NCBI RefSeq assembly: GCF_000153825.1
Contig: NZ_DS022299.1
Coordinates: 2,473,707 to 2,537,706, forward strand
Reading direction: 5' to 3'
DNA length: 64,000 bases
Source: Synechococcus sp. RS9916
GTDB taxonomy: Bacteria; Cyanobacteriota; Cyanobacteriia; PCC-6307; Cyanobiaceae
The position numbers and the translations under genes were made by a program. The notes below the pieces were generated by a model, which had not been told where the DNA came from, made no database searches, and was given only the letters and a program-made list of their open reading frames with translations. Below, piece by piece: positions 1,380-61,944 of this stretch (position 1 is its first letter; each line of letters starts with the position of its first letter).

Positions 1380-2061
1380 GATGCTTTCATACCTTAAAGC
1401 GATCTCCTCAGGAGTGCTTGTTTCGTTTCTCACGTCCTTGTCGCTAATTTTCGGTTCAGAGGCAAGCGAGAAGTCTGCGAGAAACTATCCACCGTTTTTC
1501 TACCGCTGCAACAACGGGCAGACGGTTGTTAGGCGTGCTGAGTACCAAAGAACTAAGGGCACAACTGTCTCCATTTATCCTTTTCCCGTTGAGGAGCAGT
1601 CACAGGTGCTACGGCGACGTCCTGCCAGGTTTACTGAGGGTCGCCACTCGGTTCGCTACTTCATTTCAGATCACGGTCAGGAGTACGACTGCAATCCGTG
1701 GAGTCGTTCTGATGGCGATGTCTTCGGAATCCCTGATCCTGCGGCTTTGCGACGGTATGCCAAGCGGTTCAACCCGGTGGCGAGGAACCGATTCATCTGC
1801 GCGGGCGGGCACTCTGTCGTCCTGCGGATCACGGACTTCGTGGATGCTGGACATCGCCACGGTCTGATGGAAGTGGGTGATGAAGAGCAAATCGGTCTTT
1901 ACTTCACCCGAGGTATATCAGGTCACTTCAACTCCAAGAGCACCTCAACACCAGGACTTTCCTTTGCCTGGGCTGTGCATTTGGATGACGCCCAAAGGTC
2001 TGTGATCAGGTGGTTTTTGTCCATTGACGACAAGTCCTTCAACTGCAAGCCACTCCCATAG
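1378..2061 (+). CDS. Secreted hypothetical protein, C-terminus running into mpg remnant A
   Basis: A 227-residue product with a predicted signal peptide (hydrophobic core about residues 10-28, cleavage near EASE). The mature part contains two similar Cys-containing segments (YRCNNGQTVV and FICAGGHSVVL, each followed about 55 residues later by a DCNP or NCKP motif), suggesting an internal duplication of a small disulfide-bonded domain. No family recognised. The start may be the ATG at 1378 or at 1381. The last codons and the TAG stop are supplied by the conserved left edge of mpg remnant A (CCACTCCCATAG), so the present C-terminus was probably set by the recombination event that placed the two together. 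Confidence 0.6.
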   Translation: MMLSYLKAISSGVLVSFLTSLSLIFGSEASEKSARNYPPFFYRCNNGQTVVRRAEYQRTKGTTVSIYPFPVEEQSQVLRRRPARFTEGRHSVRYFISDHGQEYDCNPWSRSDGDVFGIPDPAALRRYAKRFNPVARNRFICAGGHSVVLRITDFVDAGHRHGLMEVGDEEQIGLYFTRGISGHFNSKSTSTPGLSFAWAVHLDDAQRSVIRWFLSIDDKSFNCKPLP

Positions 2062-2235
2062 CCATCCAGCGCATCACCCAGGATTTCTCCGCCCTGTTCC
2101 ACGCTTTCTTCTGTCGCCCAGGGGAAGTCATCAGAACTGGCTTGGTGTGCTGCAGGTTGATGAAATGCCATGCCGATGCAAGCCTGCTCTGAGGCGTGGG
2201 CGTCGAAACGGAGGCCTATGACAAGGCCGTCACAG
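2052..2235 (+). pseudogene. mpg remnant A, 5' part
   Basis: This stretch aligns base by base with the first 185 bases of the mpg coding homology at 10246-10440, starting at the shared CCACTCCCATAGCC. It is clearly diverged and carries indels, so no functional frame remains. It is the oldest-looking of the partial mpg copies. The homology stops near 2235 and resumes at 2682, on the far side of an inserted membrane-protein gene. Confidence 0.8.
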
Positions 2236-2323
2236 CCTTTTCTGTTATTGCGAATTTTGTGAATATTGCCTGATGTCATGTTTTTTGGCTATTGATAAAT
2301 GGTCTTTAATGCCTCCCAGTGTC

Positions 2324-2680
2324 ATGACTGAAGCGGAAAAACTTCAAAAAGATGCCAAAAGAGCAGGCGTCAATTTGGTTGTAATGGGAGTTCTGCATTT
2401 CTTTTTTGCGTTCTTTGCGTCCCTTGGGTACGCGATTTATCTTGACTACTGGAAGCCGTTTTTGGTGGCTACCTTGACCGCGATTGTGTCGATTGTCGCT
2501 GCCGCCATTGTCGGTGGGGTTCTTGGGGCTGTTATTGGTGTTTCTGGTGGCACGGAAGAACTCGTAGGAGTGATTGGATTGGTGGTGGGTTTTCTGTTCG
2601 GTCTGATCGCCCCTTTGGTTTCTTTCTTGATGTTTAGATCCAGAGTCCTTGCTCTGCGTGATCGTGTGGCGAGTGCGTGA
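2324..2680 (+). CDS. Small multi-spanning membrane protein inserted into an mpg remnant
   Basis: About 118 residues from the ATG at 2324; in-frame ATGs at 2273 and 2309 would add 17 or 5 residues. The N-terminus is amphipathic and charged (MTEAEKLQKDAKRAG), followed by three to four hydrophobic segments: a Phe-rich helix (about residues 18-38), a long Val/Ala/Ile helix (48-75) and a Gly/Val/Leu helix (80-105), ending in a basic tail. No family is recognised. It occupies exactly the gap between the 5' and 3' halves of mpg remnant A, so it arrived by insertion into an mpg copy. Confidence 0.5.
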   Translation: MTEAEKLQKDAKRAGVNLVVMGVLHFFFAFFASLGYAIYLDYWKPFLVATLTAIVSIVAAAIVGGVLGAVIGVSGGTEELVGVIGLVVGFLFGLIAPLVSFLMFRSRVLALRDRVASA

Positions 2681-2681
2681 T

Positions 2682-2918
2682 TGGAGCCGTTTGATGTGTG
2701 TGTCAGCTATGGCTCCCCCACGGCTTGAATGTGGTGACTGATCGTGCAGAGTGGACGAATGGCGTGTTGCTTGCGCCATCGCTTTTCATGGAGAGTCTGA
2801 GTGAGGCGCGGCGGGGCCTGAGCTGCTTGCCAGGCGTATGGGTATGGATCGTGCCTATGACAGCTGCTTGATGTGTGGTGAGTGAGTTGTGGGCTGGCGC
2901 CACGACCCGCAGCAGCTT
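2682..2918 (+). pseudogene. mpg remnant A, 3' part
   Basis: Clear nucleotide homology to 10490-10735 of the intact mpg gene, including the conserved segments encoding the [15 protein letters not shown] and AHDSC regions, but with frameshifts. It continues remnant A after the insertion at 2236-2681. The part of mpg between about 10441 and 10489 is missing here. Homology fades near 2918, and 2919-2978 shows nothing recognisable. Confidence 0.78.
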
Positions 2919-2978
2919 TAATCCATCAGATTTGCCTGGCCTGTCAGTTGGCCTCAGGGAGATTATGTGGCTAGATGG

Positions 2979-5183
2979 TCAATACTGTTGGTAAGACTTC
3001 TCTTCCACAAAGACAGAGCCATAAGTGGTGTTGATCTCTTTCTTGATGGCCGCTCGTTGATCATTCTGCTGATAGACAGACCTTGCAAGGCGAATGAAGG
3101 TTTCGTCAAAGTTGTTGCGTCGTTCCTGGTCCCGAATCTCGTCTTCTATTTGCCAGAGATCTTGATTGACCTGTTTGAGGCGTTGGACGTGAGTGGGGTC
3201 AAGGTTGAGTTGGAGCTTGTTCAGTGTGGTCTCCAGGGCATTGAGCTCAGCCTTGACGTTCACCAGAGCAGCGCCTTGAAGATGCTGGGTCTTGATCTGT
3301 AGGATTGTGATCTTGTCAATCAGTTCGCCCAGAGAGATTGGGGCAAGAATGTCTTGTATTGGCTGAGGCTTTGCTGAAGGCTGAGGAGGTGGAGTTGGCT
3401 CGGTAGGCATTGCGGTGCTCCCGAATTGCTTCTGGAGTGCTTCCGCTACTCGCTCCATCAGCTCATGCCAGTTCCCTTGCTCCTTCTGACGAAAAAGGCG
3501 CATGGAGGGATACCAGAACGTCGTATCGCCTTCTAATCCCCAACGCCAATCCGGAACTTTGTGAAGTAGCAGCCAGGTGGTTTTGCCCATTCCTCCCGCC
3601 AGGTGTGCCACTGCGGTGTCGCTGGTGATGACGAGATCGCAATTGCCGATGATGGCAGCTGTCTCAAGAAAATCCCAGGTTTCGTTGATTTGATCTTGAC
3701 AGCTAACGAAACGCTCCTTGAAAGAGCAGGTGTCGAGTTGTTCGCTTCCGAATCCCTTCTGCAGTGAGAGTAGTGAGATAGAGGTGTTGTTGGCGATTGG
3801 GGCAAAAGCCTCTAGGGCTAAGGAGCGGCCCCTTAGCCCTGCCTTCTCAGCTTTTGGATTCCCTTGCCAGTTGATCCCTATGACTGGATGTGCTTTCTCG
3901 CCAAGGATGTCTGCCCACTTCTTGGTGAGTTCTTTTTTGGTGTTGATATAGGGATTGGTGAAGACCGGATTGCTTGGGCTGACCTCTAGCTGCCCAGGAA
4001 CTGAAAGGAGTGGCATCCACTCCCCCTCGGTCACTTGATTGGCTTGTTTTGGTGTGAGTGGTGAAGGATCAATTCCAGATGCTTTGATTAATGGGTGCAG
4101 CTTTGGCTGGGCGCAAAGTGAGATCGATATTCCTTTGTCTCTGAGGGCTATTGCATAACGCATGAACTGGAGTGTGTCTCCAAGTCCCTGCTCTGTGACT
4201 AATAGTAGTGGGTCTGATTGTCTGAGATCAAACTTGCCGCTCCTTTGCTTGCATTTGGGTATGGCATGGGGCTTTGCATGTTCTTTTTCTCCTTTGGTTC
4301 GCCATTCGTATTTCTCCCAGCCGCTCTTGTAGTCACCCCCAAGAAGCATCGTCAGCGCAGAGTTCCATTGAGCGTCGGGGAAGTTGGGCTTGAGCTGAAG
4401 GGCTTTGTTGAAGGAATCGATCGCAGCAGTTAGGTCGCCTTGTTCCTTAAGAGCATTGCCGAGATTGTTGTAGGTGTCGGCGTCGTTGGGTTTGAGCTGA
4501 AGCGCTTTGTTGTAGGAGGCAATGGCAGCAGTGAGGTCACCCTGCTCCTTGAAGGCAATGCCGAGGTTGTAGTGAGCCTCTGGGTAGTTGGGTTGGAGCT
4601 GAAGCGCTTGGTGATACGAGGTAATGGCAGCGGTTGGGTCTCCCTGCTTCTTGAGGACAACACCGAGATTGTTGTGAGTCTCTGGATCGTTGGGGTTGAG
4701 TTGAAGAGCGGAGTTGTAAGAGGCGATGGCAGCGGTTAAGTCACCCTGATCCTTGTAAGCATTGCCGAGGTTGTTGTGAGCCTCGGGGTAATTGGGCCTG
4801 AGTTGAAGAGCTTTGTTGTAGGAGGCAATGGCAGCAGTTAGGTCACCCTGCTCCTTCAGAGCAAGGCCGAGGTTGTAGTGAGCCTCGGGGTAGTTGGGCT
4901 TGATCTCGAGCGTTCGGCGCAGCAGTTTGATGAGCTCGGAAAATCTGCCTTGCATGCCGCAGAGTGCTGCAAGGTTCCCATAAACGATGTGATTGTTTGT
5001 CCCGGCTGCAATCAGTTCTCTGTAAATCGATTCTGCTTCTTGAAGCCTGCCCTGATCCATCAGAGCAACAGCCTCTTCCTCTTTGATGAAATGATCCTCA
5101 GAGCTCTGGCCAAGCTTTTTCCTTGAGGTGTGGCTTTTAGGCGTATTAGAGAAACCAGAGCTCTTCCGTTTGGACTTACTCAC
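2979..5183 (-). CDS. TPR-glycosyltransferase-like protein with DUF6165-type tail
   Basis: A 734-residue three-part protein. Residues about 35-275 are tetratricopeptide repeats, five of them almost identical 34-residue units (NLGxALKEQGDLTAAIxSYN pattern). Residues about 275-590 resemble the TPR-linked GT9/GT41-like glycosyltransferase fold: an EQGLGDTLQFMRYA segment like the nucleotide-sugar site loop, GINWQGNP, and CDLVITSDTAVAHLAGGMGK, the conserved late loop of GT9 enzymes. Residues about 610-734 match the DUF6165 type found on such proteins. The likely role is cell-surface or protein glycosylation; the acceptor is unknown. The gene lies between mpg remnants A and B and probably belongs to one of the accreted segments. 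Confidence 0.75.
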   Translation of the reverse strand: MSKSKRKSSGFSNTPKSHTSRKKLGQSSEDHFIKEEEAVALMDQGRLQEAESIYRELIAAGTNNHIVYGNLAALCGMQGRFSELIKLLRRTLEIKPNYPEAHYNLGLALKEQGDLTAAIASYNKALQLRPNYPEAHNNLGNAYKDQGDLTAAIASYNSALQLNPNDPETHNNLGVVLKKQGDPTAAITSYHQALQLQPNYPEAHYNLGIAFKEQGDLTAAIASYNKALQLKPNDADTYNNLGNALKEQGDLTAAIDSFNKALQLKPNFPDAQWNSALTMLLGGDYKSGWEKYEWRTKGEKEHAKPHAIPKCKQRSGKFDLRQSDPLLLVTEQGLGDTLQFMRYAIALRDKGISISLCAQPKLHPLIKASGIDPSPLTPKQANQVTEGEWMPLLSVPGQLEVSPSNPVFTNPYINTKKELTKKWADILGEKAHPVIGINWQGNPKAEKAGLRGRSLALEAFAPIANNTSISLLSLQKGFGSEQLDTCSFKERFVSCQDQINETWDFLETAAIIGNCDLVITSDTAVAHLAGGMGKTTWLLLHKVPDWRWGLEGDTTFWYPSMRLFRQKEQGNWHELMERVAEALQKQFGSTAMPTEPTPPPQPSAKPQPIQDILAPISLGELIDKITILQIKTQHLQGAALVNVKAELNALETTLNKLQLNLDPTHVQRLKQVNQDLWQIEDEIRDQERRNNFDETFIRLARSVYQQNDQRAAIKKEINTTYGSVFVEEKSYQQY
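4402..4911 (-). repeat. Five tandem 102-bp TPR-coding units
   Basis: Five consecutive units of 102 bases (34 codons) start at about 4402, 4504, 4606, 4708 and 4810. They are similar enough at DNA level (recurring GCTTTGTTG and GGCAGCAGTTA blocks) to look like recent expansions or homogenised copies. Copy-number change by slippage would keep the reading frame. Confidence 0.75.
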
Positions 5184-5219
5184 GCATAGTCAATGGAATT
5201 GCCTCAATGTTACGCCGGT

Positions 5220-5356
5220 CTTCACGCCAATCCCATAGCCACCAAGTCCATCACCCAAGATTTCCCAGCCCTGCCCCACGCCTTCTTCTGCCGCCCCGCA
5301 GAAGTCGTCGGACCAGACTTGGTGGGCTGCAGGTTGGTGAAACGCCAAACAGACAT
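5220..5356 (+). pseudogene. mpg remnant B, 5' end only
   Basis: About 137 bases homologous to the 5' end of mpg (10246-10382), beginning at the same CCCATAGCC edge as the other copies. It is diverged from the live gene, but less so than remnant A. The GGACCAGACTTGGTGGGCTGCAGG region is nearly unchanged. Homology ends just before the stop codon of the minus-strand secreted-protein gene at 5363. Confidence 0.8.
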
Positions 5357-5362
5357 AAGTAT

Positions 5363-5740
5363 CTAGAGGGTGTAGCTGAACTTTCCGCCGTCTACAAAGA
5401 TTGTAATCGTTGCTCCTGTCTGGGAGTAAGTGCCTTGGTGGAATGATCCTTTGGTTTGCCCTGGTGCGTACAAATTAATTTGCACATTATTGCCTCTCAT
5501 TTCCCTGGAGATGATCCTTAGAGTTCCGTTGGGTTCTCGTAGGAACTCTTTTGTCCACCCGCCTGCATTGGGCTTTCTGGAGATGGTGCAAGTATTGGTT
5601 GATGTTCCCTCAAATTTGCATCGTGATGTGTCTGCATTGGTGGGCAATCCATGTAATCCAATCATGCTTATTGAAGTCAAGAGTGCGAAAATAAGTTTTT
5701 GAGTGTTGAGAGTCATAAGGGTCTTGGTCTTGTAGGTCAT
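5363..5740 (-). CDS. Small secreted protein, function unknown
   Basis: 125 residues from the Met at 5740 (a longer start at 5782 and a shorter one at 5716 are possible). It has an N-terminal signal peptide: basic n-region, hydrophobic core [14 protein letters not shown], cleavage near TNA-DT. The mature domain is about 85 residues with two Cys close together (RCKF, TCTI) and a run of short beta-strand-like segments with Gly turns. No family recognised. It sits between mpg remnants B and C. Confidence 0.5.
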
Positions 5741-5782
5741 TTCTCGCAAATTGCGTAATTGGTTGGTTTGAAGACGAGGCAC

Positions 5783-6119
5783 TCTGGGCTTTTCCCGGTT
5801 ATCCAGTTGTCTTGCCGCTCAGTCACAGTTGTTGGATTTCCTCTGCCAGGTGTATCTCCTGCAAGGTAGTTAATGGAGTGAATCTTTCCTTTCTTCCAGC
5901 TGGTTCTGTAAGATTCCCTCCTTAGTGCTTCGCCTTTGAATCAGAATAAGCACTGTATATTCTTGAAGTGTTGAGCGTGTCTGACTTCGGTGCCTGAGAG
6001 TGCCAATATCGCGAGTAATCCCACCTGGCGAATTCTACTCGTTGTTTCGGGTCTTTGTTTGTAGGAGCAGTAAGTCTTATGCAGATTATACGGTCTATGT
6101 AACGACTCTCAGTCAACCC
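5783..6119. other. Intergenic stretch without a supported gene
   Basis: About 335 AT-rich bases between the secreted-protein gene and mpg remnant C. Short open frames exist on both strands, but none has a convincing start, composition or homology. In the mpg frame, an in-frame TAA lies a few codons before remnant C, so the remnant cannot be translated from upstream. Confidence 0.5.
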
Positions 6120-6401
6120 CATAGCCAGTCAGCACATCGTCAAGGATTTCCCAGCTCTCCCTCAATCCTTCTTCTGCCGCCCTGCAGAGGTAGTGGGACC
6201 TGACTTGGTGGGCTGCAGGTTGGTGAAACGCCAGGCGGATGGCAGCTTGCTCTGGGGCGTGATTGTGGAGACGGAGGCGTATTCACAGGATGAGCCTGCC
6301 TGTCACGGTTACCGGCGCCGCTCACCGCAAAACGAAACCCTGTTTGGAGAGCCAGGGCGGTTTTATGTGTATGTGAGCTATGGCATCCACCACTGCGTGA
6401 A
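6120..6401 (+). repeat. mpg remnant C: 282-bp direct repeat of the live gene's 5' end
   Basis: This segment matches 10254-10535 inside the intact mpg with no gaps and only four mismatches that I can find, all near its right end. It covers codons from ATA-GCC to about the SYGIHHCV region. It has no start codon (in-frame TAA just upstream), and the frame runs on after 6401 into unrelated sequence before a stop near 6438. It marks the left end of the youngest inserted element; its partner marks the right end. Confidence 0.9.
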
Positions 6402-6658
6402 GCGAGCCGTGAGCTCAAGCAGCTCAGGCTGGGCTTGATTTTTGAAAGTTTGCTCTGGGTCAGTCAGCCAAGGTTCAAGCCACTGCAGCTGATTTGAGTG
6501 ATTTGTCTTGCTTGCAGATGCTCAACGGCTAAGTAGGGCTACAAGCTCTGGTGAGGTTGATGGATAAATCAGTGGTGCAGCCGTAGCTCTGGTGACAGCA
6601 GCAATCCAGCACCCTGCTCAAGCCGCCATCGCTCCGCAACAACAACGGCACGCTCCAG

Positions 6659-7687
6659 GTGAGGGTGCGGATTGATGGCAAGGATGCGTTTATCAATCGC
6701 CTGGGACGCTGGAACGACCCAGTGGCGGTGGCTAAAGCCCACGCCATCAGCGCCCAGATTTGGAGTGATTACCAGCAGGGCAGCTTTGACCGCTCCCTGA
6801 TGGCATATCAGCCGCTTGTGAATGGCAAGCAGGTGGCACTGCTGGAGGCGCTGAGGGTGAGGGCAGAGACCAAACGCCAGGCTGCTGCAGTTCACGCTCA
6901 CAAGCTGCTGGAGCGATATGGAAAACCCATCCGCAATCGCAGTGAAGCAGAGGAGTTTCTGCGCTGGTTGAGAGAGAAGTGTGGATTGAGCGACTGCACG
7001 ATTGCTGGGTTGATGAGCCATTACCGCCAGTGCAGTGGAGGCAATCGCCATCTCTTTTCCCACAAGCTCAAGTGGCAGCGGCGGTCGGTGCAGAGCGATG
7101 TGTTGAGCGTGGAAGAAATCCAAGCCGTGCTGGCTGACCTGGAGCGCAATGAGAGCTGGTATTACCCACTGTTTCTGCTGTGGCTCAGCACAGGGATGCG
7201 CAATGCAGAAATCAGGGGATTGACCTGGGATTGCATTCGCTGGGAAGAAGGTGAGGTGCTGGTTTGTAAGAGCTTGCGGCGTGATGGCTATTCATCAGGT
7301 CATCACAGCTGGGCAACGACGAAGACAGGGAGAGAGCGGGTTGTGCCACTGACCGCTCAGGTGCTGGAGGTGTTGAGGCAGCACAAGGCTGAGATGGAGC
7401 TGCTGGGGATTGATGACCCTTATGGGCTGGTGTTTGTAACCCCTACCAGCCACACCAACATCTACGACCACCTGGTGGGTCGTGTGTGGAAGCGGTCGCT
7501 TGAGCGTTGTGGCTTGAAGCTCCGCCGCCTTTACGCCCAGCGTCATAGCTTCCTGTCTCACGCTTTAGCGATGGGAAACTCCCCTGCTGATTTGGCAGCG
7601 GCAGCAGGGCACTCCACCAAGATGCTGCTTGATACTTATGCCAAACCAACAGGCAGATTGAAGATGCCGAGCTGGCAGACAGCTTGA
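6659..7687 (+). CDS. Tyrosine recombinase (phage-type integrase)
   Basis: A 342-residue tyrosine recombinase, expected to catalyse integration or excision of the surrounding element. Catalytic residues visible: box I Arg181 in STGMRNAEIRGL; Lys222 in TKTGRERVVPL; Arg295 in LYAQRHS, where the usual His of the HxxR motif is Tyr292; His318 in AAGHS; nucleophile Tyr327 in LDTYAK. The N-terminal 140 residues are the arm- and core-binding domains. The first usable start is a GTG at 6659, but an in-frame, homologous-looking stretch (KPPSLRNNNGTLQ) continues upstream to a TGA at 6593 without ATG, GTG or TTG. Either initiation is non-standard or the true N-terminus has been lost. Confidence 0.85.
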   Translation: MRVRIDGKDAFINRLGRWNDPVAVAKAHAISAQIWSDYQQGSFDRSLMAYQPLVNGKQVALLEALRVRAETKRQAAAVHAHKLLERYGKPIRNRSEAEEFLRWLREKCGLSDCTIAGLMSHYRQCSGGNRHLFSHKLKWQRRSVQSDVLSVEEIQAVLADLERNESWYYPLFLLWLSTGMRNAEIRGLTWDCIRWEEGEVLVCKSLRRDGYSSGHHSWATTKTGRERVVPLTAQVLEVLRQHKAEMELLGIDDPYGLVFVTPTSHTNIYDHLVGRVWKRSLERCGLKLRRLYAQRHSFLSHALAMGNSPADLAAAAGHSTKMLLDTYAKPTGRLKMPSWQTA

Positions 7688-8005
7688 AAAGAAAACTAAA
7701 AAGGATGCTTATTTCAAAGCTATAAAAGTGGGTGCGTCAGTGCTTGAAGTGCTGCGGAAATAGTAATAAAAATAAGCCTGCGTGATGTATTGCTTTCGTT
7801 GTCTTTGCCTGCGGAGATTGGAGTGTTGGTCAATCGTCAGCGACAGACCCTGTAAAAACAACAACTTGTATAAATAACTATCGCCTGCAGTGCTTACTCG
7901 GTGGATTGAGAAGCGACCGCTGCTAGCAATAGCAGAAGAGATGTGCTGGATGCCAAGGGATTGGTGTCAGGTGTCTCTGCGTGAGAAGAAACAGGAGAAA
8001 CTCAA
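7688..8005. other. Intergenic region between integrase and Rep-like gene
   Basis: 318 AT-rich bases without a supported gene. It contains AT-rich patches (TAGTAATAAAAATAAG; a TATAAA-like -10 box at 7869-7874) and short direct repeats of AGTGCTTGAAGTGCT type. This is the natural place for the promoter of the Rep/RHH operon and possibly for an origin or nick site used by the HUH protein, but no defined iterons are visible. Confidence 0.35.
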
Positions 8006-8548
8006 ATGAAATCAATACAACAAGAAGAGCGAAAGCAAGCCCAAAGGTTGAAGCGGAATGTCAAACGCCTCATCACAGGTGAGCTCCAAAGTATCAACCC
8101 TTGGTGGTTTATTAGCTTTCACTACCGAGACCACCACGGCAAAGAAGATGAGTTGCTCCAAGATGTTGCCGACCTCAAGCGAAAACTGCATCGCATCATT
8201 TATAAGAGCCGTGATAGGAGCATCAAGGGTGCTGGTGAATATCCATACCCAAGAATGTTGTTTTTCCACGAAACTAGCCATCAGGGCACGGGTCAGTTTC
8301 ACACCCATCTGATTGCAGAAAAGTTGCCAGCAAGGCTAAATACTCAAGTTGAGATGGAAGTCTTATTCCGCAAGCGATTGCCCCATAAGGTCAAGGCGTT
8401 GTCTAAGTGGAAATCCATTGATATTCAACGCATCAACCAACAGGATGATGACTACAGATGCATTAGCAGTTATTTGGGCAAACAGACGAGTTTGGAGCTG
8501 ATTGCCCTTGACCCATTCAACAGCGACCTATCAGCAAGAAAGCAATGA
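8006..8548 (+). CDS. HUH-type replication/relaxase-like protein
   Basis: 180 residues. A His-x-His motif (H99 and H101 in GTGQFHTHLI) sits on a predicted strand, followed by a Y-x5-Y-x2-K arrangement (Y150, Y156, K159 in DDDYRCISSYLGK). This order, HUH then the tyrosine helix, is that of rolling-circle Rep and related single-strand nicking endonucleases, so it probably nicks and joins DNA of the element. It is very small for a Rep and lacks a helicase domain. The start codon is an ATG close to a GGAGAAACT Shine-Dalgarno-like stretch. Its stop overlaps the start of the next gene (ATGA at 8545-8548), so the three genes form one operon. Confidence 0.6.
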   Translation: MKSIQQEERKQAQRLKRNVKRLITGELQSINPWWFISFHYRDHHGKEDELLQDVADLKRKLHRIIYKSRDRSIKGAGEYPYPRMLFFHETSHQGTGQFHTHLIAEKLPARLNTQVEMEVLFRKRLPHKVKALSKWKSIDIQRINQQDDDYRCISSYLGKQTSLELIALDPFNSDLSARKQ

Positions 8549-8721
8549 GAAGAAATCAACTCACCATCACTTACCCAGAAGGTGATGCCCAGCAACTGCA
8601 TCAGGCACTTCTGCTCCTAAAGAGAAGCCGTTGCCTGAATATTTCAGCCTTCTGTCGTGCAGCGATTGCAGAAAAGCTGGAGCGATTGGAGCCAGTGGAA
8701 ACCCAAGAGCTCGTCAAATGA
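8545..8721 (+). CDS. Small ribbon-helix-helix-like protein (first of pair)
   Basis: 58 residues, starting at the ATG that overlaps the Rep-like gene's stop and ending in a TGA that overlaps the next ATG. The pattern is a short beta strand (NQLTITYPEGD), then two helices (LHQALLLLKRSR and NISAFCRAAIAEKLERLE), which is the CopG/Arc ribbon-helix-helix layout. Likely role: DNA-binding regulator of the Rep-like gene or an accessory protein of nicking. Translational coupling on both sides indicates it is made in step with the Rep-like protein. Confidence 0.55.
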   Translation: MRRNQLTITYPEGDAQQLHQALLLLKRSRCLNISAFCRAAIAEKLERLEPVETQELVK

Positions 8722-8873
8722 AGACCATCACCATTCGCCTACCTGATGTGGAGGCAGCAATGCTGGTGGAGGTGCAGAAGGTCAATCGGGCGTATAGAGA
8801 CATCCAAGGTTTTCTGGTGAGTCAAATCCAGCAGGAATATGCCAAGACCGCTAAGGGCAGAGCATCAAGTTGA
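8718..8873 (+). CDS. Small ribbon-helix-helix protein (second of pair)
   Basis: 51 residues from the ATG at 8718 (ATGA overlap with the preceding stop); an upstream in-frame start at 8631 would run through the previous gene and is less likely. The N-terminal strand KTITIRLPD followed by helix VEAAMLVEVQKVNR and helix IQGFLVSQIQQEYAK is a clear RHH signature. Two RHH genes in a row behind a Rep-like gene may form a heteromer or bind separate operators. Confidence 0.6.
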   Translation: MKTITIRLPDVEAAMLVEVQKVNRAYRDIQGFLVSQIQQEYAKTAKGRASS

Positions 8874-8896
8874 AAGTGTCAGCCTGATCAGCCGCA

Positions 8897-9682
8897 ATGT
8901 CCCGCTCACCACGCCATCTGCCTCAGGGCTATTCGTTTCACATCACCTTGAGGTGCAACAGCCGTCAGTTTTTGATTGCGAAAGGATTGAGGCGGGATGT
9001 GCTGCTAGCAGTGCTCGCCAAGGCACAAGCCAAGGTGCCTCATAGGTTGTATGCCGTGTGCTTCATGGCAAATCACCTGCACTTGCTCATAAGACCTGAC
9101 GATGCATCCAAGCTGCCAAAGCTGATGCATTGGTTTGGCTGGTATTCAGCGATGGCACTCAACCGCTTGAGTGGTCGTTGCGGGCATTTTGGGGAAGCGA
9201 GGTATTACGCCACTGCCATCGCAGCTAAAGACCACAGACGAGTGCTGAATACCTTGCGGTATATCCACGCCAACCCGAAAGCAGCTGGAGTGCGACAGGG
9301 GTTTTATGACCCCTATTCCAACTACGGGCACTACGGCAGGTTGGCGTGTGATGGCATCAGCGAATGGCACCCCAGCTTTCTGCAACTGGCATCAAGCCTG
9401 AAGGGATGCTCCAGGCGATATGAGCGGTTTTGCCAGAAGTATCGCCATCACGCCAAGGGAGTCGCTAAGTGCCATTGGGGCTCAAGGATGCTGAAGCGAT
9501 TGGTTGGGAGCAGTAGAAGCAAGAAGAAACGGGTCTCACCAGGTCAACAGCAACTCCCATTTGCATTTGATGTGCGGCTCAATCAAATCCCTGACGAGTG
9601 GCATCAGGTGGCGGCGAGATTTCGCAAGGCGAATGGCATCCGTGATGGTGATAGGGAGCGAATTATTTGGCAGTTGCGTTGA
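8897..9682 (+). CDS. Y1 transposase, REP-associated (RAYT/IS200-like) type
   Basis: 261 residues. The N-terminal domain is the IS200-like Y1 fold: ITLRCNSRQF strand, HUH pair H60 and H62 in FMANHLHLLIRP, and the catalytic tyrosine Y122 in the helix LRYIHANPKAAG. These are features of TnpA_REP proteins, single-copy domesticated relatives of IS200/IS605 transposases that act on short palindromic REP hairpins. The basic C-terminal third (about 170-261) is an added DNA-binding region. No flanking IS200-type ends or REP pairs were recognised nearby. It stands 23 bases after the RHH pair. Confidence 0.8.
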   Translation: MSRSPRHLPQGYSFHITLRCNSRQFLIAKGLRRDVLLAVLAKAQAKVPHRLYAVCFMANHLHLLIRPDDASKLPKLMHWFGWYSAMALNRLSGRCGHFGEARYYATAIAAKDHRRVLNTLRYIHANPKAAGVRQGFYDPYSNYGHYGRLACDGISEWHPSFLQLASSLKGCSRRYERFCQKYRHHAKGVAKCHWGSRMLKRLVGSSRSKKKRVSPGQQQLPFAFDVRLNQIPDEWHQVAARFRKANGIRDGDRERIIWQLR

Positions 9683-9856
9683 GGGAATAAGGGTAGAAGT
9701 AGGACTAAAGAAAGCTGAGGCTTTATTTGCTCTGCCTTGTGTTTTTTGTGGATGGATTAGGCGGTTGGATGGGTGAAGCTAGTGACTATTTTATGGATAA
9801 TGGTGCCAGGTATTGGGAGTTGATTGATGGTCTTTTTGGGGTGATTGAAGAAATGA
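9683..9856. other. Short intergenic stretch after the transposase
   Basis: About 170 bases between the transposase stop and the hairpin at 9857. No gene or repeat is visible. Confidence 0.4.
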
Positions 9857-9882
9857 AAAGCCCTTGTTAATGCAAGGGCTTT
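9857..9882 (-). terminator. Stem-loop terminator of the Nif11-peptide gene
   Basis: A perfect 10-bp inverted repeat, AAAGCCCTTG / CAAGGGCTTT, with a 6-base loop. On the minus strand it is followed by a short T-rich tail and lies 26 bases past the peptide gene's stop, as expected for an intrinsic terminator. It could also act on rightward transcription. Confidence 0.65.
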
Positions 9883-9908
9883 GCTGTGCTAGTTATGCAA
9901 CCAAAGAA

Positions 9909-10163
9909 TCAACAATTCCATGCACAAGTGTGATTCCAGTTGCTACAGTAAAAGTTCGTCTTCTCCCCCCCAGCCACGCCTTCCAGCTCTTCTTCTGAAA
10001 CCTCTGATTGAGCGTTCTTCAAGTCATCAGCAGAGATGCTAAATCCCGCCTCTTTCGCAATCGCAAGAACAGCGTCTGAATCAGCTGCAGCTTTCAGCTT
10101 CTCCTGAAGCGTGGTGTCAGCTTTGACTTTTTCAAGGAACGCTTTGAGCTGTTCTTCTGACAT
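9909..10163 (-). CDS. Prochlorosin-like lanthipeptide precursor (Nif11-type leader)
   Basis: 84 residues. Residues 1-64 form a Nif11/N11P leader (starts MSEEQLKAFLEKV, contains AIAKEAGFSISADDL) ending with the double-glycine site VAGG at 63-66. The 18-residue C-terminal core has three Cys (73, 80, 84) and three hydroxy residues (Thr69, Ser74, Thr79). This is the layout of ProcA peptides of marine Synechococcus and Prochlorococcus, which a single promiscuous ProcM synthetase dehydrates and cyclises before cleavage at GG and export. No LanM or exporter gene is in this window, so the peptide is an orphan that would depend on enzymes elsewhere. Confidence 0.85.
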   Translation of the reverse strand: MSEEQLKAFLEKVKADTTLQEKLKAAADSDAVLAIAKEAGFSISADDLKNAQSEVSEEELEGVAGGEKTNFYCSNWNHTCAWNC

Positions 10164-10224
10164 CTGAGAGAAAGGGCTTCGTTCATTTCATTGTCGTTCC
10201 TCCAAGCAGCGTTGTCAGACTTCG

Positions 10225-10893
10225 GTGAAGAAGGTTGTTGTTCCAGCCACTCCCATAGCCAGTCAGCACATCGTCAAGGATTTCCCAGCTCTCCCTCAAT
10301 CCTTCTTCTGCCGCCCTGCAGAGGTAGTGGGACCTGACTTGGTGGGCTGCAGGTTGGTGAAACGCCAGGCGGATGGCAGCTTGCTCTGGGGCGTGATTGT
10401 GGAGACGGAGGCGTATTCACAGGATGAGCCTGCCTGTCACGGTTACCGGCGCCGCTCACCGCAGAACGAAACCCTGTTCGGTGAGCCAGGTCGGTTTTAT
10501 GTGTATGTGAGCTATGGCATCCACCACTGCGTGAATGTGGTGACTGATCGTGCCGAGTGGGCGAATGGCGTATTGCTGCGCGCCATCGCTCTTCCTGGCG
10601 AGCCTGAACGGGTCGCGGCTGGGCCTGGGCTGCTCGCTAGGCGCTTTGGGATGGATCGAGCGCATGACAGCTGCTCGGTGTGTGGTGAGAATGAGTTGTG
10701 GCTGGCGCCGCGACCAGCAGCTCTCGAGCACCCCGCGCTTGTGACCACCACTCGGATCGGAATTTCTCAAGCCCAGGAGTTGCCCTGGCGTTGGTATTTC
10801 CAGGCCAGTCGCAGCGTCAGCAAACGCATGCGGGGTGATCGCATGCCATCGCGATCGTCTTGTTGGATTCCTGAGGGAGCCATCGGCGCATGA
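10225..10893 (+). CDS. mpg: 3-methyladenine DNA glycosylase (AAG/MPG family)
   Basis: 222 residues, usual length for the family. It removes alkylated purines (3-methyladenine, hypoxanthine) from DNA in base excision repair. Visible motifs: [20 protein letters not shown] at the N-terminus, the catalytic Glu in GVIVETEAY, the base-pocket region [16 protein letters not shown] and the C-terminal RIGIS...PWRWYF. The start used is a GTG at 10225, lying 24-30 bases upstream of the sequence shared with the partial copies, so the first nine codons come from the inserted element. The stop overlaps the pyrB start (ATGA at 10890-10893). This is the only intact copy of four. Confidence 0.93.
10254..10535 (+). 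repeat. Right-hand 282-bp direct repeat (inside live mpg)
   Basis: Partner of 6120-6401, same orientation, offset 4134 bases, no indels and about four mismatches. It lies wholly within the intact mpg. Recombination between the two copies would delete the element and restore mpg with the upstream region of remnant C. Confidence 0.9.
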
Positions 10894-11936
10894 GCACTTG
10901 GACCCATCGCCACATTCTCGATTTAGCGGCTTTTTCTCGCGATGATTTCGCGATGGTGCTGGAGCTGGCCCACCGCTTCCGCACCATGCCTCTCACCGGG
11001 GCCCGCAAGCTTCCTGCCCTCCAGGGGCGGCTGGTGGCAACTCTGTTTTTTGAGCCCAGCACCCGCACCCGCAGCAGTTTTGAGTTGGCAGCGAAGCGGC
11101 TATCGGCGGATGTGCAGAGCTTTGCGGCCGCCAGCAGCTCCCTCAGCAAGGGGGAATCCCTGCTCGACACCGCCCGAACCTATGTGGCCATGGGGGCTGA
11201 CATGTTGGTGGTCCGTCACCAGAACACCAGCGTTCCCCAGCAGTTGGCCGAAGCGCTTGAGGCCGCAGGTGAACGCACGATGGTGCTCAACGGTGGCGAT
11301 GGCCTGCACAGCCACCCCAGCCAAGGTCTGCTCGATCTCTATACGCTCGCCCACCACTTCGATCCCAGCAACGCTTCGATCGCGGCCCTGCAGGGCAAGC
11401 GTCTGTTGATCGTGGGCGACATCCTCCATTCCCGTGTGGCCCGCTCCAACCTTTGGGCCCTCACCGCCTGCGGCGTGGATGTGGTGCTTTGTGGCCCCCC
11501 CAGCCTGGTGCCCGACGCCTTTGCCGGCTTTGTGGACGCTCCGCCGCCTGGCCAGGCCAACGATCCGGTGCCCCAACGGGGGAGGGTGAGCGTCACCCGT
11601 GATCTGGATGCAGCCCTGGCGGATGTGGATGCGGTGATGACGCTGCGCTTGCAGAAGGAGCGCATGAGCCAGCACCTGCTCACGGACCTTGACCGCTACC
11701 ACCGCGACTTCGGCCTGACTCACCAGCGTCTTCAGCAGTGCAAGGCCACGATCCCTGTGCTTCACCCCGGCCCGGTAAACCGTGGTGTGGAGATGAGCGG
11801 CGCCTTGCTGGATGACACCGCTCGTTGTCTGGTGGAAGAGCAGGTGCGCAACGGCATCCCGGTGCGCATGGCCCTGCTTTATCTGATGGCAGCGGCTGAA
11901 TCGCCTGCCGAACCTTCCGTGGTTCCGTCGGCTTGA
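10890..11936 (+). CDS. pyrB: Aspartate carbamoyltransferase, catalytic subunit
   Basis: 348 residues. It joins carbamoyl phosphate to aspartate, the committed step of pyrimidine synthesis. The carbamoyl-phosphate site [13 protein letters not shown] is at about residues 51-63; the [12 protein letters not shown] and aspartate-binding [11 protein letters not shown] segments follow. It is translationally coupled to mpg by an ATGA overlap. The 3' end overlaps the convergent NADH dehydrogenase gene by 58 bases. Confidence 0.95.
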
Positions 11937-14635: not shown

Positions 14636-14708
14636 TGGAGAATAGGGGACTCGAACCCCTGACCTCTGCGGTGCGATCGCAGCGCTCTACCAGCTGAGCT
14701 AATTCCCC
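14636..14708 (-). tRNA. tRNA-Ala (CGC)
   Basis: A complete 73-base cloverleaf on the minus strand: acceptor stem GGGGAAT/ATTCTCC with the G3-U70 wobble pair that identifies alanine tRNAs, D-arm TTAGCTCAGCTGGTAGAGC, anticodon stem CTGCG/CGCAG with loop ATCGCAC (anticodon CGC) and T-arm GGTTCGAGTCC. The 3' CCA is not encoded. Confidence 0.95.
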
Positions 14709-61807: not shown

Positions 61808-61881
61808 CGGGATGTAGCGCAGCTTGGTAGCGCACTTCGTTCGGGACGAAGGGGCCGCAGGTTCGAATCCTGTCATCCCGA
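61808..61881 (+). tRNA. tRNA-Pro (CGG)
   Basis: A 74-base cloverleaf: acceptor CGGGATG/CATCCCG (the C1-G72 pair is typical of proline), D-arm TAGCGCAGCTTGGTAGCGC, anticodon stem CTTCG/CGAAG with loop TTCGGGA (anticodon CGG), T-arm GCAGGTTCGAATCCTGT and discriminator A. CCA is not encoded. Confidence 0.96.
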
Positions 61882-61944
61882 CTGCACGGTTCAGTCGAGC
61901 CGATCCGTCGCTCCCTTGTTGTGAGCTCGGTTGATTGGTTCTAC

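Follow-up and report, generated by a model that had tools for sequence, protein, structure and literature searches.

We found that a 4134-bp unit in a 64,000-nt stretch of the genome of Synechococcus sp. RS9916 (hereafter the window; G000:C1:2473707-2537706 of a 2.66-Mb genome in a single contig) is very probably a site-specific integrative element of picocyanobacteria, with a family in Cyanobiaceae. Two 292-nt repeats, at 6110-6401 and 10244-10535, share 98% identity at a spacing of 4134 nt. The right copy lies within an intact mpg gene (3-methyladenine DNA glycosylase; PF02245, E 8.8e-49), and the left copy is a 5' fragment of mpg, not a whole gene. The interval between them encodes a tyrosine recombinase, an HUH-type Rep, two small proteins of RHH-like appearance and a Y1 transposase similar to RAYTs; a Nif11-leader peptide is encoded on the opposite strand. 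Genomes, contigs and loci are cited below by our G, C and L codes.

Crossover point and element boundaries

The crossover analysis covered 60 larger loci besides the window. In these, 19 mpg 5' fragments extended to the repeat end, and 14 of them departed from mpg exactly at the end of a 43-nt core (...GTGAA or GTCAA). The element arm GCGAGCC continues after the core in eight of these 14, found in eight genomes. In the window, the 43 nt before the crossover point are the same in both copies. From this shared end point we inferred that crossover takes place where the repeat ends on its 3' side, so that the element supplies a new mpg 5' half at its right end. A boundary at the 5' end of the repeat was considered and rejected, as the fragments in relatives share their 3' end point and several run on into the element arm.

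These results bear on an earlier note on this DNA, which had described near-identical repeats around a 4.1-kb unit and had proposed that it is a small integrative element able to regenerate the gene it targets. The repeats are as described, and the core junctions, together with the empty sites reported below, support the proposal. The note had set the unit at 6120-10253; this length holds and the position does not, since a crossover at the repeat 3' end moves the unit to about 6402-10535.

An mpg fragment is adjoined by the recombinase or its remnant in 11 genomes (RS9916, G239, G126, G171, G134, G141, G260, G249, G207, G247 and G203). The features of the element are as follows.

6110..6401, + strand: left mpg 5' fragment (attL side), codons ~7-104, terminating in the 43-nt core
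6359..6401, + strand: attachment (att) core, left copy, identical to 10493-10535
6402..6441, + strand: element-side arm adjoining the core, GCGAGCC...GGCTGGGCTTGA, with exact GCGAGCC in 8 genomes
6659..7687, + strand: tyrosine recombinase (integrase) of the mpg-site group, which may start at CTG 6614
8006..8548, + strand: HUH-type Rep (H99-x-H101, Tyr156)
8545..8721, + strand: small RHH-like protein 1, no significant Pfam match, gene order conserved
8718..8873, + strand: small RHH-like protein 2, no significant Pfam match
8897..9682, + strand: RAYT-like Y1 transposase (IS200-like)
9800..9883, + strand: 84-nt sequence 3' of the RAYT open reading frame (ORF), closed by a terminator-like hairpin; the search of the RS9916 genome yielded 19 copies
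9909..10163, - strand: predicted prochlorosin precursor (Nif11 leader, GG site, core EKTNFYCSNWNHTCAWNC)
10225..10893, + strand: regenerated mpg gene, taken as element-borne up to 10535 and chromosomal in the remainder
10493..10535, + strand: att core, right copy

The tyrosine recombinase matched PF00589 at E 2.3e-17. Its relatives at ~50-60% identity adjoin direct repeats of other host genes, which we assigned to uvrA and a PLD-like nuclease (Pfam confirmed one intact example of each, and the remaining labels were given by eye). A tree of 24 recombinase sequences followed the target gene. The six uvrA rows formed one clade (98/95), the nine PLD rows fell on one side of a branch (62/80), and the seven mpg rows grouped with L067 at 80/78; the left flank of L067 was read as a decayed mpg fragment. 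uvrA (L063, L065, L120, L121) and the PLD-like nuclease (L059, L069-L075) thus appear as two further integration sites, mostly with direct repeats and some with tandem insertions. No ATG, GTG or TTG codon covers the first 15 recombinase residues common to the relatives, and CTG at 6614 was the sole other in-frame candidate among those checked.

Empty and filled mpg sites

A transporter gene (PF02592, Vut_1), which we take to be yhhQ, is conserved as the upstream neighbour of mpg. We surveyed 26 of the 31 genus genomes (five drafts were left out), with distances taken from tblastn ends. The distance from the transporter gene to mpg was 33-188 nt in 14 genomes, scored as empty, and 755 nt to 17.3 kb in 12, scored as filled; in RS9916 it was 14.4 kb. 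Empty sites, whose complete absence from related strains would have refuted the proposal of the earlier note, were thus present in more than half of these congeners (14 of 26). At least one hallmark (an mpg fragment, the recombinase, RAYT or a prochlorosin-type gene) was found at 11 of the 12 filled sites. A VanW gene (PF04294) lies inside the distance in RS9916, G169, G156 and G075, with only 380 nt beyond it in G075. The idea that a prochlorosin gene stood upstream of mpg ancestrally is disfavoured, as no prochlorosin match was found in the examined stretches of the 14 empty-site congeners.

The mpg gene itself is mosaic. Compared with G289, the RS9916 gene was 92% identical before the core and 63% identical after it (69% by local alignment), and this 5'-3' excess was the largest among 325 pairs (mean 9.7, standard deviation (s.d.) 7.8). 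In 60-column windows, identity stayed at 95-98% over the four that precede the core end and dropped to 48-75% past it. The left mpg fragment was as close to G289 as the RS9916 mpg gene, a result to be expected had the mpg 5' half already been exchanged in an earlier insertion. Furthermore, integrase and Rep were 88% and 89% identical between RS9916 and G239, compared with 73% for pyrB. The corresponding values were 81% and 82% against 73.5% for G126, and 83% and 82% against 76% for G260. The higher identity of the element genes is in line with horizontal transfer.

The recombinase-Rep-RHH module

The linkage search covered 300 Cyanobiaceae genomes at E <= 0.001, weak matches included, and found Rep in 17 and the recombinase in 42. 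Ten loci were close by Rep (identity at least about 53%): RS9916, G239, G203, G081, G126, G260, G105, G254, G025 and G249. The recombinase lies upstream of Rep on the same strand in nine of them, and in the tenth (G203) the contig starts 270 nt before Rep. It is truncated in G260, cut by the contig end in G105, interrupted in G081 and G025, and badly broken in G249. The first RHH-like gene also follows Rep at nine of the ten loci, whereas RAYT follows it at five (RS9916, G239, G081, G126 and G105), indicating that recombinase, Rep and RHH make up the core module and that RAYT is optional. In G254 and G025 the Rep module was found with uvrA- and PLD-type recombinases. Thus the conserved gene order that the earlier note had suggested searching for exists, so that its refuting case of homologues that are never linked does not apply, and the RAYT gene that it had included in the set is present here, but as an optional passenger.

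The family match of Rep was weak (PF23343, E 0.015, 16.0 bits against a cut-off of 27.8). In an alignment of 13 rows, H99-x-H101 and Y156 were invariant, and an AlphaFold2 model (pLDDT 83.7) had an HUH-like predicted fold. We take Rep as a putative HUH nuclease. The combination of two HUH-type proteins with a tyrosine recombinase and no phage structural gene, which had been noted before, is supported. The two small proteins are RHH-like by eye, neither having a significant Pfam match. In L061, L062 and L066, a Cys-rich, zinc-finger-like protein that we read as reminiscent of primase zinc domains is encoded near the place that Rep takes in other elements at mpg.

The prochlorosin gene and other cargo

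The peptide gene of the element, left unassigned by the earlier note, encodes a Nif11 leader (PF07862, E 3.2e-19; TIGR03798, 96.7 bits against a cut-off of 32.3). The leader ends in a double Gly (...EELEGVAGG) and is followed by the core EKTNFYCSNWNHTCAWNC, which has three Cys and also Ser/Thr. By these features the peptide is a predicted prochlorosin (lanthipeptide) precursor. RS9916 has one match to the synthetase LanM, at G000:C1:1460934-1463801 (867 bits against 304), ~1 Mb from the element, and LanM scored above its cut-off in 12 of the 31 genomes.

As cargo we counted the genes that separate mpg from the replication module or from what remains of it. This cargo combines RAYT, whole or partial, with a prochlorosin gene in RS9916, G169, G239, G271 and G289. 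In G126 and G156 it is a barrel-like protein with a variable tail, which adjoins mpg in L169 too. TPR proteins were found in G141, G207 (with a sulfotransferase domain) and G260, a methyltransferase in G249 and a cytosine DNA methylase in G134. A prochlorosin-type gene lies immediately upstream of intact mpg, on the opposite strand, in 8 of the 26 genomes. The core regions of seven of these eight were readable and all differed; that of G075 was without double Gly or Cys.

In two of the 12 LanM genomes, LanM itself lies within the yhhQ-mpg interval, which is empty in other strains. The 12-kb interval of G239 (L131/L239) holds a prochlorosin gene, RAYT, an outer-membrane efflux protein, a C39-peptidase ABC exporter and LanM, and the 17.3-kb interval of G253 (L136) holds LanM, seven prochlorosin matches and four mpg pieces. 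G246, G075 and G156 have prochlorosin-type genes at mpg and gave no LanM match.

RAYT, an 84-nt sequence and hypervariable tails

The transposase matched Y1_Tnp (PF01797, E 1.8e-10, 41.4 bits against a cut-off of 23) and the NCBIfam family REP_Tyr_transpos at 54.3 bits, below the curated cut-off of 80. One copy of an 84-nt sequence was found in the window, on the 3' side of RAYT only and not as an inverted flanking pair, in a search that was not aimed at other kinds of REP. It begins 117 nt past the RAYT stop and closes with a terminator-like hairpin. With a model built on 47 copies and up to 146 candidates per genome scored, we found the sequence in 23 of the 31 genomes, in 1 to 145 copies (at least 145 in G289). 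RNAalifold gave a poor consensus of three pairs for the set; the longer hairpin is our reading of the alignment.

Each of the 41 copies found in RS9916 and G075 has, no more than 330 nt away, the 3' end of a tail gene that runs on the other strand. The 19 copies in RS9916 belong to 17 prochlorosin (procA) and two barrel genes, and the 22 in G075 to two procA and 20 barrel genes. In addition, the two genomes have 12 RAYT copies or pieces, 11 of them in G075, and all lie upstream of an 84-nt sequence, at 203-231 nt from the match end to the end of the 84-nt element. By eye, only part of the sequence follows RAYT in G123, G271:C28 and G169:C17, and so the link is complete only in the two wholly searched genomes.

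The barrel-like protein gave a weak Pfam hint (IAT_beta, E 0.061), and its G156 member gave none. Members of this family, ending in NRDVRVHD, carry hypervariable, often Cys-containing C-terminal tails, and each adjoins an 84-nt sequence and often RAYT (L172-L179 and L214-L235 in G075; L148 9784 and L150 5682 in RS9916). Within G075, identities on the RAYT side and the barrel side were discordant, with the break at the tail, for example 97% against 80% between L173:6769 and L175. Between L175 and L178 both sides exceeded 90% and the tails between them did not align.

Exchange of tails was examined on 129 distinct 84-nt copies from fetched loci, from which 89 tails were parsed (58 procA and 31 barrel) and 40 unparsed were dropped. 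Among the 89 there were 13 matches within a family and none between procA and barrel, so direct tail exchange between the families is not demonstrated. One of the 13 was a 100% copy; most others were short and lay towards the 84-nt sequence.

Proposed mechanism and alternative explanations

In the mechanism that we propose, the tyrosine recombinase would join the core of the element to the matching core inside mpg (about codons 90-104). Comparative anatomy supports the outcome, in which the old mpg 5' part remains at the left, and the mpg 5' part of the element is joined to the chromosomal 3' part and restores the gene. The element would be excised as a circle, which Rep, judged by its family, would probably nick for rolling-circle replication or single-strand transfer; the RHH-like proteins, likewise by family, would probably regulate. 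Cargo occupies the stretch from the Rep module to mpg and mostly runs on the opposite strand; in RS9916 it consists of RAYT, its 84-nt 3' sequence and one prochlorosin gene. Repeated insertions would build an island upstream of mpg, with mpg 5' fragments remaining as scars.

Several observations weigh against an integrative element. No circular form, excision or transfer was observed, and mobility is what we infer from the comparisons above; likewise, we can point to no known carrier. Five of the 19 mpg fragments overrun the core, by 7-15 nt in L066, L112, L113 and L136:3704 and by >100 nt in L136:2202-2615, and the 1.4-kb filled site of G213 has no hallmark. A Foldseek search with Rep gave no match at E <= 0.001, the first being a circovirus Rep domain at 0.028. 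In VIA-align the first neighbours were SIRV1 ORF119, which we take to be an HUH-type Rep (Z 8.7), and AAV Rep (Z 8.0), and Z ~8 is modest. Moreover, mpg 5' halves are generally more conserved (the mean excess of 9.7 points over the 325 pairs), and the excess is 11.4 when both sites are filled and 7.7 when both are empty (s.d. 7-9). The now-empty G306, G303, G277 and G265 also share high mpg 5' identity with the window. Given this general conservation and these four genomes, the mosaic signal partly reflects background or old exchange.

Tandem duplication of the mpg 5' part by homologous recombination, with unrelated genes ending up between the copies, is hardly credible as an alternative. A 292-nt repeat is able to recombine, and the mpg 5' fragments do vary in length, with the overruns just described. 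However, the end point is constant and adjoins a recombinase in many genomes, empty sites exist, and the recombinase groups track the target gene. RAYT might instead be the mover, transposing jointly with the 84-nt sequence and a tail gene, with mpg a mere landing place. The sequence follows each of the 11 RAYT copies or pieces in G075, prochlorosin arrays contain RAYT 3' pieces and mpg pieces, and a bioRxiv preprint, by its title, reportedly associates lanthipeptide genes with TnpA-REP transposases. Nevertheless, the mpg elements of G260, G249, G171, G134, G141 and G207 have no RAYT match, and the shared junction is the core and not the RAYT end, which makes this explanation of the unit very improbable. 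RAYT transposition may explain spread within genomes.

We also considered a phage satellite or tycheposon-like element with phage-borne transfer, and regard it as improbable. The small size, tyrosine recombinase, replication gene and variable cargo would suit such an element, and families of this kind, including tycheposons, have been proposed in marine bacteria (PMC11389934). PHROGs placed the integrase in two families and gave weak matches (E 0.012-0.09) for Rep and the second small protein. Against a satellite, the proteins of the 4.1-kb unit gave no Pfam or PHROGs match to a packaging or capsid-remodelling gene. There is no tRNA gene at the element ends, the only two in the window being at 14636-14708 and 61808-61882. 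Rep had no match in plasmid and phage records and no close relative in viral contigs, and phage records yielded only integrases <60% identical to the recombinase. No direct evidence was found for the rolling-circle, possibly satellite-like status suggested by the earlier note. Pfam matches of the element proteins included no relaxase family, PADLOC found nothing, and an Rfam scan of 6000-11000 gave a single sub-threshold match (SCARNA18), regarded as chance.

Returning to a site-specific element at mpg, a broader and tentative reading would be that such elements carry prochlorosin genes into picocyanobacteria, together with the synthetase and exporter in some strains, and seed arrays there. 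RAYT and the 84-nt sequence would then be a tail-exchange device that diversifies the 3' ends of prochlorosins and the barrel-like protein. If true, this would be a protein-diversifying system based on an HUH nuclease.

Relation to known systems

In its mode of action the element resembles other tyrosine-recombinase elements that target genes. Some integrative elements, for example those with dusA integrases, insert into the 5' region of a gene and bring a replacement for it; there too the target gene is restored by element-borne sequence, although the target and the gene set differ. Tycheposons of Prochlorococcus are alike in their tyrosine recombinase, variable cargo, recurrent single site and picocyanobacterial hosts. 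They border on tRNA genes (PMC10872708). The present element, in contrast, enters a protein-coding gene, mpg, whose 5' part it replaces, and it encodes an HUH Rep; by the tRNA criterion it is not a tycheposon.

RAYTs are similar in combining an IS200/IS605-related Y1 transposase with an adjoining short repeat in many more copies than the gene. PMC2817692 describes REPs as inverted pairs around RAYTs, with a GT(A/G)G head, whereas the 84-nt copy here is single, on the 3' side, without that head, and borders tail genes. In view of PMC10783134, the RAYT-prochlorosin link, which resembles that in the title of the preprint mentioned above, is not claimed as new. Among the open-licence literature matches listed, no paper combined prochlorosin with 3-methyladenine DNA glycosylase, and no title or abstract start described such an element. 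The mpg site with an HUH Rep, the role as prochlorosin carrier and the 84-nt sequence common to two hypervariable-tail families were not found in that literature.

One strain can hold dozens of unrelated prochlorosin genes. The element offers a concrete, testable candidate carrier with a defined attachment site and suggests one route by which peptide genes could travel, and its relatives show the mpg site gathering prochlorosin genes, a synthetase and other cargo. The 84-nt sequence provides a simple marker of hypervariable 3' ends in two unrelated families and a handle on tail change.

Older island and scattered mpg fragments

Further mpg pieces, with a TPR gene among them, lie to the left of the element, at the following positions.

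2048..2219, + strand: older mpg 5' fragment
2689..2913, + strand: old internal mpg fragment, starting at the core
2979..5183, - strand: TPR protein that was probably carried in by an earlier element; the mpg-adjacent cargo of G260 is a homologue (68% identity, 699 aa)
5226..5347, + strand: older mpg 5' fragment, probably the scar of an earlier insertion

Because of this identity to the G260 cargo, we conclude that the window probably retains cargo of an older element. Over the older island (2048-6401), mpg pieces alternate with an ORF at 2273-2680, the TPR gene and an ORF at 5363-5782. A homologue of the ORF at 2273-2680 adjoins another mpg piece in L237.

Seven genomes also hold mpg fragments outside the mpg locus, twelve in all; not counted are two fragments in G301, a draft that is 58% complete, and the split contig G239:C10, whose sequence overlaps that of the mpg contig. 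Ten of the twelve lie within 150 nt of a prochlorosin gene (six in G193, the others in G289, G169, G253 and G265); they are divergent from it, as at the right end of the element, and several are fused to a RAYT 3' piece. In these five genomes 1-5% of the length lies within 500 nt of a Nif11 gene, and the fragments are clustered, hence not independent. Of the remaining two, that of G156 stands beside a homologue of the ORF at 2273-2680, and that of G295 (weak, 46% identity) has neither such a homologue nor a prochlorosin gene nearby. The ectopic pieces fit either element insertion and decay or copying of RAYT, prochlorosin gene and mpg by other means. No mpg fragment was found in RS9916 beyond its mpg island, which speaks against the element as vehicle of its other prochlorosin arrays. 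In Cyanobium sp. T1B-Tous (L165), tandem units join mpg codons up to 51 to RAYT residues 124-261, the 84-nt sequence and a prochlorosin gene, and their fusion point is constant.

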